The notes below the pieces were generated by a model, which had not been told where the DNA came from, did no database searches, and saw nothing but the letters and a program-made list of their open reading frames with translations. The translations under genes and the position numbers were made by a program. Positions 8,547 through 58,250 of a stretch of 64,000 bases of DNA are shown one piece after another. Each line of letters begins with the position of its first letter. The stretch's first letter is position 1. The stretch is from Klebsiella michiganensis (GTDB lineage: Bacteria > Pseudomonadota > Gammaproteobacteria > Enterobacterales > Enterobacteriaceae), in assembly GCF_002925905.1 (NCBI RefSeq), contig NZ_PRDB01000001.1, forward strand, positions 434,001 through 498,000, read 5' to 3'.

Positions 8547-8670
8547 ACACTTCATCCTTCAAGTTGCCTCTGTGTTGGCTGCGTTCTCTTACCCGAATCA
8601 CTTACCAGCGTCAGCTTGCCGCGATTCGCTTTCCTGCGGCCTTGATGCAACTTGAATGATTTTGTGTATG
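8544..8670. repeat. ERIC element between rhlB and gppA
   Basis: A 127-bp imperfect palindrome with ends CATACAC...GTGTATG. Inner arms pair: CCTTCAAGTTGC on the left and GCAACTTGAATG on the right. The centre (CTTACCCGAATCACTTACC...) is recognisable as a diverged ERIC core. It fills nearly all of the space between the rhlB stop (8681) and the gppA start (8546), and its left end carries the gppA ATG (complement of 8544-8546). It would be transcribed in any rhlB-gppA read-through message. It resembles the copy at 36973-37099 most closely. Confidence 0.85.
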
Positions 8671-25448: not shown

Positions 25449-25525
25449 CGGCGAGTAGCGCAGCTTGGTAGCGCAACTGGTTTGGGACCAGTGGGTCGGA
25501 GGTTCGAATCCTCTCTCGCCGACCA
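25449..25525 (+). tRNA. proM: tRNA-Pro (TGG)
   Basis: A 77-nt cloverleaf with acceptor CGGCGAG/CTCGCCG, anticodon loop TTTGGGA (anticodon TGG), T loop GGTTCGAATCC and encoded ACCA. It is the last gene of the tRNA operon and is followed directly by a terminator. Confidence 0.98.
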
Positions 25526-25560: not shown

Positions 25561-25701
25561 CCGCTTTTGCAAAAACGTTCCTATCTCCCTGATATCGCAA
25601 AAAATATCTCGCTAATCAGCATGCGATTTATTGTCCAGAATAGTCCCAATTCCTTGTGCGGATAGATGCATTTTCTACCGATCCTGTGCGATAATAAACG
25701 G

Positions 25702-26037
25702 GTAGATGCTCATTCCATCTCTTATGTTCGCCTTAGTGCCTCATAAACTCAGGAATGATGCAGAGCCGTTTTACGGTGCTTATCGTCCACTGACAGATGT
25801 CGCATTTTATATGCTAAATCATTCATGATGTGTCGAGACGGCCAGCACGGGAATCCCCCGGAGCTTACAAAGGTAAGTGACTGGGGTGAGCGTGTGCAGC
25901 CAACGAAGAGACAGCGTGAAGGATGAAGCATATAGCCTCATCAAACACCATGGACACTACGTTGAGTGAAGCACCCAATTTGTTGTCAAACAGACCTGTT
26001 TTAACGCCTGCCCTGGTTTCAGAGCAGGCGTTTTTTT
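25702..26037 (+). ncRNA. glmZ: GlmZ small RNA interrupted by an ERIC element
   Basis: The sequence from GTAGATGCTCATTCC (25702) through CCACTGACAGATGTCGC (about 25803), and again from GCCTCATCAAACACC (25935) to the terminator, matches remembered E. coli GlmZ, the Hfq-binding RNA that activates glmS translation. A 127-bp ERIC lies between the two parts. Removing it with one TA leaves about 211 nt, close to the 207 nt of E. coli GlmZ. GATAAT at 25690-25695 puts the start at 25702; the -35 is weak. The 3' part with TTGTTGTC and ACAGACCTGTTTTAACG, where glmS pairing is expected, is intact, as is the terminator (AACGCCTGC / GCAGGCGTT, 26003-26032, then T7). The position between the tRNA cluster and hemY is that of E. 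coli glmZ. Confidence 0.9.
25808..25934. repeat. ERIC element inside glmZ
   Basis: A 127-bp imperfect palindrome counting the TA on each side. Inverted ends TATGCT (25810-25815) and AGCATA (25927-25932) are flanked by TA at 25808-25809 and 25933-25934, the duplication expected for ERIC insertion. The core contains GGAGCTTACA and GTAAGTGACTGGGGTGAGCG, matching the classical ERIC1R/ERIC2 primer sequences almost exactly. It is the least diverged ERIC in the window and would fold into a long hairpin within the GlmZ transcript. Confidence 0.93.
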
Positions 26038-26108: not shown

Positions 26109-27305
26109 TTACTGCTGCGGGTTGTTTTGCAGGGTTAACAGCAGGCCGTCGCGACGCATCGTCGCCGCTTCTTCCGGCTGATGCAGGCGGTCAAGTGTAT
26201 CGGCCAGCCACGCGTAGTCAAACGCATCCGGGCGCTGCTTGAGCGCTGCGCGGAACGCGATGCTGGCTTCCTGCCACTCGCCGTGACGCATGAGCGATTG
26301 CCCCAGCGTACTCCACAGCAGCGGACGGTCGCCGACCGTTTTGATCTGCTGGCGCAGCACCTTTTCCAGCTGTTCCGGATTATTCGTTTTCAGCCGCGGG
26401 ATCGGCATCACCAGACGATCGTCGTAGTGCTTTTTCAGACCTTCGATAATAATCTGCTGCGCGGTATCATGGTCGTCGCTTTCGATAAGGCGATTAGCCA
26501 TTGCCACCTGTAGCGCCACCTGGCTGCGGGTTTTTCGGTTCTGGCTTTTCCACCAGTCGCGCAGACCTTCGCTGCCGCCGTCGGCCAGCGTTTTATCCAT
26601 CAGGCCAATCCACGCCAGCTGTTCCAGTTCGGCACGGTGCTCCTCATCGCTGACGTTGGCTTTCGCCATTGATGGAAGAATATCCAGCAGCGAATTCCAG
26701 GCGCCGGTACGAATGTAGGCCTGCTCGGCGAGGCGCAGGACCTCCGGATGACGCGGCGTGATCTCCAGCAGCTTGTCGATGCCGTGGCGGGCGGCGTGGT
26801 TTTCATTACGCGCCAGCTGCAGGCGTACGCGGGTGATTTCGACAGGTATCAGGTCGTCGCCGGCGAGCTCTGTCGCGCGCTCCAGATGCTGGTTGGCGCG
26901 GGCTTCATCGCCACGCTGCTGGGCGGCTTCTGCCGCCAGCAGGTAGTTCACAACGGGCTGCTCAGCGTGATCGGCATTTTTCGCCATCAGCTTCTCAACC
27001 TGCTGATAATCGCCCTCCGCCAGCTTCAGCAGCGCCTGCTCGGTTTGCTTACGCGCGCGGCGACGCTTGCGGCCCACGAACCAGCCGCGGGTATGCGCGC
27101 CGGTGCGGAAAATGCGCCGCAGCAGCCACTCAATGGCAAACAGCACCACCATGGTGAGGATCATGATGATCGCTAACCCGGTGACGCTGGTTTCAATGTT
27201 GTAATTATCGGTCTGGATCAGGACGTAGCCCTGATGACCCGCGATCATCGGACCGACCACGATCCCGGCAAGCAGCAGCGCGAAGAGTAAGAGAATTTTC
27301 AACAT
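26109..27305 (-). CDS. hemY: HemY, membrane TPR protein of the hem operon
   Basis: This 398-residue protein starts with two membrane segments (about 4-25 and 40-60; ILLLFALLLAGIVVG, then IIMILTMVVLFAIEWLLRR). They are followed by a basic stretch (GRKRRRARKQTEQALL) and a cytoplasmic tetratricopeptide-like helical region ending in a TPR-like GEWQEASIAFRAALKQRPDAFDYAWLADTL. It is the protoheme IX biogenesis protein HemY of enterobacteria, unrelated to the Bacillus protoporphyrinogen oxidase of that name; its biochemical role is not settled. It is the last gene of hemCDXY, 3 nt after hemX. Confidence 0.93.
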   Translation of the reverse strand: MLKILLLFALLLAGIVVGPMIAGHQGYVLIQTDNYNIETSVTGLAIIMILTMVVLFAIEWLLRRIFRTGAHTRGWFVGRKRRRARKQTEQALLKLAEGDYQQVEKLMAKNADHAEQPVVNYLLAAEAAQQRGDEARANQHLERATELAGDDLIPVEITRVRLQLARNENHAARHGIDKLLEITPRHPEVLRLAEQAYIRTGAWNSLLDILPSMAKANVSDEEHRAELEQLAWIGLMDKTLADGGSEGLRDWWKSQNRKTRSQVALQVAMANRLIESDDHDTAQQIIIEGLKKHYDDRLVMPIPRLKTNNPEQLEKVLRQQIKTVGDRPLLWSTLGQSLMRHGEWQEASIAFRAALKQRPDAFDYAWLADTLDRLHQPEEAATMRRDGLLLTLQNNPQQ

Positions 27306-58120: not shown

Positions 58121-58250
58121 AATCCTTTATCTTTCGAATTTATGGCAGCGTTGGCTGCACTTCCTCACCCCAGTCACTTACTTCAGTAAGCTCCTGGGGA
58201 TGAGCAAGTTTGCCGCCTTCCCTAAATCCGAAATCTTTCGGATTGCAATT
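58119..58250. repeat. ERIC element in the metE leader
   Basis: The core GCGTTGGCTGCACTTCCTCACC and CAGTCACTTACTTCAGTAAG followed by CTCCTGGGGAT matches the ERIC consensus closely. The outer arms (TTTATCTTTCGAATTTATGG on the left; AAATCCGAAATCTTTCGGATT on the right) are more diverged, so the ends are approximate. It lies between the MetJ operator and the metE ribosome-binding site, inside the transcribed leader. Confidence 0.88.

Follow-up and report, generated by a model that had tools for sequence, protein, structure and literature searches.

The small RNA gene glmZ of Klebsiella michiganensis carries a complete ERIC element of 127 bp in the apical loop of its central stem (SLII). In our preferred reading, to which we give a probability of about three in four, the gene encodes a working, RapZ-controlled GlmZ whose SLII bears a tolerated, MITE-derived extension, inserted once and later trimmed or lost in some lineages. 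The locus lies in the window, by which we mean the whole 64,000-nt stretch of DNA analyzed here (contig positions 434001 to 498000 of the genome referred to as G000). The window RNA is a MITE-extended variant of a known sRNA, old, common to several species and most likely tolerated. A sequence-only reading of the window had proposed the ERIC insertion; that it is old and shared among species, with trimmed derivatives, goes beyond what could be seen at that stage and comes from comparison of sequences between genomes.

The covariance model RF00083 (GlmZ_SraJ) gave one match at positions 25702 to 26037 (+), covering model positions 1–214 of 214 with 194.3 bits, where the gathering score is 60 (E value 2.9e-51), and the glmZ sequence first recognized on both sides of the ERIC proved to be a single end-to-end match. 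An Rfam scan of the full window returned the same GlmZ match and four tRNAs. The predicted RNA is 336 nt long as against the usual ~207–214 nt; the insert accounts for the excess, and the window RNA is counted as GlmZ because of the model score, not its length. The gene is split after nt 106, close to the interruption near nucleotide 108 originally estimated, and the covariance-model alignment put the insert at the tip of SLII, in agreement with the proposed insertion in the loop of the central stem. The 5′ part of GlmZ (25702–25807, +) comprises SLI and the 5′ arm of SLII (GUCCA...GAUG, 25785–25799, +), which is predicted to pair with the 3′ arm (CAUC...UGGAC, 25939–25955, +) at mean pair probabilities of 0.93 for GUCCA and 0.99 for GAUG, while the 3′ part (25935–26037, +) holds the 3′ arm of SLII, the next segment and the terminator. 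The surroundings are the conserved genomic place of GlmZ, with tRNA-Pro at 25449–25525 and, downstream, a gene at 26109–27305 (−) that we take to be hemY; among the named relatives, of which the best 80 of 220 were taken, 78 have glmZ next to the hemY-side gene. A second intact glmZ, whose presence had been raised as a counter-argument, was looked for by covariance-model search in G000 (6.19 Mb, 32 contigs) and not found; the other RF00083 match of this genome (68 bits, 189 nt) reads as GlmY. Both RapZ and GlmS are present, the former as a 299-aa open frame at 240.7 bits and the latter at 883.2 bits.

The element itself, at 25808–25934 (+), consists of a 123-bp core (25810–25932) with TA at each border, which are counted in its 127 bp, and has the inverted ends TATGCT (25810–25815, +) and AGCATA (25927–25932, +), exactly as first described. 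Folded alone, it reached −58.6 kcal/mol compared with a mean of −30.8 for shuffled sequences (z −8.05), and 0 of 200 shuffles were as low; the long new hairpin anticipated earlier is thereby supported by both the sequence and the predicted fold. At least 31 ERIC matches at E ≤ 0.001 were counted in G000 (40 of 43 candidates scored), and E. coli has ERIC matches in 5375 of 5426 genomes, with a median of 8 places among genomes with any. Two more copies lie in the window, one at 8550–8662 (−), grouped with same-place ERICs of genomes G007, G005 and G017, and the other at 58149–58201 (−), grouped with G004 and G010. K. grimontii (G004) is poor in ERICs, with 4 matches to the glmZ ERIC query and 6 to another ERIC query when all candidates were scored; the same two queries matched at least 31 and 39 times in G000, which is closely related to it, and 24 and 31 times in K. 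oxytoca (G009), and the second query gave 12 in K. pneumoniae (G012). The eight listed best E. coli matches to the glmZ ERIC all fall under the annotated acpH and appear to be an intragenic ERIC, and the best match was at 90–95% identity in 5 of 5394 E. coli records. ERICs within ORFs have already been reported, according to the available part of the source (PMC10969869).

The insertion was then placed among relatives. In a genus sample of 20 genomes (Klebsiella, Raoultella included), six carry a glmZ of 335–336 nt with an ERIC at the same place, namely G000, G005, G007, G009 (K. oxytoca NBRC 105695), G010 and G017 (K. spallanzanii SB6411); G007 is very likely 'Enterobacter' sp. JUb54, and G005, G007 and G010 are assemblies of 1–2 contigs. 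Four others (G003, G008, G015 and R. planticola, G011) have a glmZ of 259–260 nt with a 59-nt SLII tip. The remaining 10 of 20 have a glmZ of 208–218 nt with tips of 7–16 nt, and count as empty. Some empty relatives have TA-containing tips, e.g., CATTTTATGT, and in a comparison for TA duplication none was clearly the pre-insertion allele. Anchors located glmZ in 78 of the 80 named relatives and did not find it in the other 2; three had the ERIC, two a long trimmed tip and 73 a tip of 7–17 nt, which starts with CTTCGG in 43 of the 73. A family-wide scan gave a glmZ match in 187 of 295 genomes, and among the matches listed none besides G000 was longer than 234 nt. None of 20,395 E. coli records reaches 80% coverage of the interrupted glmZ, and part of it is matched in 5374 of 5426 genomes. 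In a tree built from the flanks, three groups were seen. The five genomes on the K. pneumoniae side are all empty; of the seven in the Raoultella group, one has the ERIC, four have 59-nt tips and two short tips; and of the eight in the K. oxytoca group, five have the ERIC and three short tips. The window genome stands beside K. grimontii (support 96/93). The tree with an outgroup gave a long-branch warning for E. coli, and the tree without outgroup had the same groups.

The part of GlmZ outside the insert is nearly unchanged in the carriers. Among the five oxytoca-group carriers, the GlmZ body diverges by 0–1.0% and the downstream gene by 6.4–11.8%. The median ratio of body to downstream-gene divergence was 0.054 for 15 ERIC–ERIC pairs, 0.247 for 45 empty–empty pairs and 0.205 for 60 mixed pairs, sets that differ in age, and these ratios give no sign of decay of GlmZ after the insertion. 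Upstream, a −10-like hexamer GATAAT (25690–25695, +) precedes the RNA start by 6 nt. All 13 Klebsiella/Raoultella rows aligned, from 13 of the 20 genus genomes, keep it with or without the ERIC, and the E. coli row differs; CCTGTGCGATAAT is kept in 12 of the 13, the exception being K. indica (G006). A generic promoter scan listed no sigma-70 promoter pair. Two segments of the 3′ part, GUUGUC (25982–25987, +) and ACCUGUUU (25994–26001, +), match the reverse complement of the glmS leader of the same genome exactly, and this 6- and 8-base complementarity is kept; the free energy of the GlmZ–glmS duplex was uninformative, as 196 of 500 shuffles were as good. SLIII, the intrinsic terminator (26003–26037, +), is marked by the end of the RF00083 match and a T run, and was not listed by a simple terminator scan. 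The glmS-pairing part and the terminator hence remain, as the sequence-only reading had stated, in both the sequence and the predicted fold. In the window RNA, SLI and SLII have predicted pair probabilities of 0.93–0.99, and in the K. grimontii GlmZ, which has no insert, 0.93–1.00. Competing folds were predicted for three relatives: in JUb54 (G007, with the ERIC) a fold 1.4 kcal/mol better than the canonical one, leaving canonical SLI/SLII probabilities of 0.07–0.28; in G008 (trimmed tip) one 0.4 kcal/mol better (SLII 0.23–0.26); and in R. planticola (trimmed tip) one 2.3 kcal/mol better (SLII 0.04).

The most serious alternative is that the extension has been co-opted, the extra helix altering RapZ or RNase E binding or the lifetime of the RNA and being kept by selection in the K. 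oxytoca complex; we consider this possible but unlikely. Its attraction is that the glmZ ERIC differs by 1.6–3.1% among the five oxytoca-group carriers, and neighboring DNA by 4.8–23.9% (4.8–8.3% over a 1300-bp upstream stretch and 9.4–23.9% in the 160 bp just upstream). The proper control for this divergence is ERICs at other shared places, chosen by their similarity to the glmZ ERIC. The control set used 31 of 31 matches of G000, 39 of 40 of G007, 40 of 40 of G005, 30 of 40 of G017, 12 of 24 of G009, 19 loci for the 43 matches of G010, 5 of 40 of G016 and 4 of 4 of G004, with 40 candidates scored in each of G000, G005, G007, G010, G016 and G017. Shared-place pairs needed both flanks above a score threshold, whereby the glmZ pair of G000 and G007 was dropped and was calculated separately. 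The glmZ ERIC was the least diverged of 8 in the pair G000–G009 and tied for lowest of 9 in G000–G005. In G000–G010 it was the middle of 3 (0.016, the others being 0.008 and 0.020), in G000–G017 tied second of 5 (0.023), in G005–G010 third lowest of 7, in G005–G017 only 10th lowest of 12 (0.031), and in the pairs of G007 with G005 and G017 second or tied second of 4. Slow evolution as proof of function, strong against neighboring DNA, is weakened by this overlap with shared-place ERICs and was set aside; ERICs at other shared places appear to evolve about as slowly as the glmZ ERIC, some falling below it.

The positions of the substitutions were also considered. The glmZ ERIC has 3 in its outer 66 columns and 15 in its inner 63, compared with 109:124 in 27 other ERIC families (Fisher p 0.014), and an outer share so low was seen in 0 of 11 other ERIC families with at least 6 variable columns. 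The placement away from the SLII junction would favor co-option, but the 31/95 cut was chosen after viewing the alignment, and p rises to 0.17 in a cut-free test and 0.11 with family-balanced resampling, and it was rejected as a signal of selection. No compensatory changes were found in the ERIC helix, with 0 of 46 pairs changed on both sides in the six rows, and paired cells made up 96.0%, not above the 96.3% of shuffles. The absence of the ERIC from three of the eight oxytoca-group genomes also argues against co-option. Equally speculative is the broader idea that the SLII tip is an open end of the RapZ–GlmZ–RNase E complex onto which lineages graft helices, and that the ERIC helix of the K. 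oxytoca complex tunes GlmZ turnover, a MITE domesticated as a structural module in a core sRNA. Co-option of the glmZ ERIC is accordingly kept here as a possible outcome, as is the change in RapZ recognition or stability raised in the sequence-only reading, and the tolerated extension as the favored one.

The six glmZ ERICs share a common ancestry. They are mutually 0.89–0.98 identical, and among 174 further ERICs, drawn from eight genomes, none exceeds 0.81 identity to them. Place and orientation are the same in all six, and because of the gap in identity they most likely descend from one insertion. The oxytoca group would set a minimum age for the insertion, which is probably older since one member of the Raoultella group carries the ERIC; the tree leaves the branching order of the three groups unsettled. 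Empty genomes inside ERIC-bearing groups would then require several losses or local recombination, the latter being a possible source of the patchy distribution. We regard it as somewhat less likely even than co-option that, instead of a single old event, the pattern reflects several independent insertions or a recent transfer from one species to another. In keeping with such histories, the carriers do not form a single clade in the tree of the flanks (five belong to the oxytoca group, which also includes three empty genomes, and one to the Raoultella group), and the SLII tip GCGCAAGC is identical in G016 and K. grimontii, which are not sisters. Nevertheless, the shared place, orientation and identity, together with an ERIC divergence of 9% between G000 and G007 where the flanks are at 7–15%, make separate insertions very unlikely. 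The tip common to K. grimontii and G016, a GCAA tetraloop, sits in different glmZ bodies; it may reflect convergence or a very short recombination tract. Retention of the glmZ ERIC is not unique either, as 3 of 31 G000 ERICs have a same-place ERIC among 39 ERIC loci examined in G007; in a fourth G000/G007 locus pair the region is in common and the ERIC is not.

With one old insertion as the preferred history, the 59-nt tips can be read, with moderate confidence, as a trimmed, internally deleted ERIC. Aligned to the ERIC with a single internal deletion, they fit its two ends better than do shuffles in which the base pairs are preserved. Against the genomic ERIC consensus, 0, 1, 0 and 0 of 250 shuffles reached the score in the four genomes; against the glmZ ERIC itself the signal was weaker (1, 17, 3 and 1 of 250). 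Because the four rows are related, they do not amount to four independent tests in either comparison. An earlier scoring (0 of 150 shuffles in each of the four) had kept flanking bases, which was too favorable, and was set aside.

Taken together, we propose a single insertion of ERIC, a non-autonomous MITE, into the SLII apical loop of glmZ, at a TA, in an ancestor that belonged to Klebsiella (Raoultella included). As ERIC is a long imperfect inverted repeat, its RNA would fold back on itself and prolong SLII as a long hairpin; nothing would change in SLI, in the lower SLII where RapZ and RNase E make contact, in the segment that pairs with glmS or in the terminator. Transcribed as a 336-nt RNA, GlmZ would most likely still be a RapZ-controlled activator of glmS with normal activity, its tip protruding from the complex, and in some lineages the ERIC would later have been cut down to shorter hairpins or have disappeared. 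In the accessible text of the E. coli cryo-EM work, RapZ binds SLI and SLII via dimers of its C-terminal domain, with SLII contacts at A125 and A127, RNase E touches SLII through its DNase I and 5′-sensor/S1 domains, and the cleavage site lies between SLII and SLIII (PMC9841335). The ERIC lies at the distal end of SLII, and elsewhere the sequence of the stem is unchanged. SLII tips vary elsewhere too, being by eye ~25 nt longer than usual in two genomes of another genus (G184 and G267), and most simply the tip would project from the RapZ–GlmZ–RNase E complex, although a clash with the complex is possible. The long tips of these two genomes are not obviously ERIC by eye, and in the GlmZ of G058, G193 and G066 it is SLI, not SLII, that is lengthened. 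That several lineages lack the ERIC or have it trimmed shows it to be dispensable. The suggestion that it is tolerated as a loop extension is favored because the species that keep the same insertion also keep the GlmZ body nearly unchanged.

GlmZ is not translated, and the longest unbroken helix in the predicted ERIC fold, 8 bp, is short for RNase III. The helix length weighs against a further alternative, which we hold to be improbable, that RNase III or RNase E cleaves the ERIC helix, so that GlmZ acts as two pieces, or turns over faster, independently of RapZ. Precedents for such cutting reported in reviews, as far as the available portions of the sources go, are the cleavage of Correia repeats by RNase III and, for Yersinia mRNAs, an RNase E site within the 3′ end of ERIC (PMC10969869, PMC2229807). 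The Yersinia effect, however, is described in the latter as exposed by ribosomes and dependent on orientation (PMC2229807), and would therefore not be expected in an untranslated sRNA. Least probable is that the insertion inactivated glmZ and left a decaying pseudogene, with glmS controlled otherwise: a 127-bp insertion in a gene for a ~207-nt RNA and the competing fold predicted for JUb54 would fit, but the GlmZ body is nearly unchanged across several species, and the promoter core, glmS complementarity, terminator, RapZ and GlmY-like RNA are all kept.

The tolerated extension thus offers a natural experiment on a well-studied sRNA, in which the stem bound by RapZ and RNase E has gained 46 predicted pairs. 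Some lineages have apparently shortened this addition again and others have lost it, with the rest of GlmZ kept. It leads to the prediction that the SLII tip makes no contact in the RapZ–GlmZ–RNase E complex. More generally, it suggests that a MITE landing in a hairpin loop of a structured regulatory RNA can persist there, since it comes with a helix of its own. A search of the open-licence PMC literature on ERIC or other insertions with GlmZ or sRNA genes found no paper on an ERIC in glmZ.

Compared with GlmZ (SraJ) as described by RF00083, the window RNA has in common the full-length match, SLI, SLII and the terminator, the place between tRNA-Pro and the downstream gene and the complementarity to the glmS leader, and differs in being 336 nt rather than ~210 nt long, with the 127-bp ERIC at the SLII tip. 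The element shares with the ERIC/IRU repeats of enterobacteria its 127 bp, TA borders, inverted ends, long hairpin and multiple copies; in the available text on these repeats they lie between genes (PMC2229807), whereas the window's ERIC lies within a structured sRNA gene. The nearest parallel is QMITE1/QMITE2 of Coxiella burnetii, where, as in the glmZ of the window, MITE sequence contributes to an sRNA. According to the accessible part of that report (PMC5896051), the Coxiella MITE is the sRNA itself or part of its promoter, whereas in the window the MITE lengthens one stem of a pre-existing, conserved sRNA.
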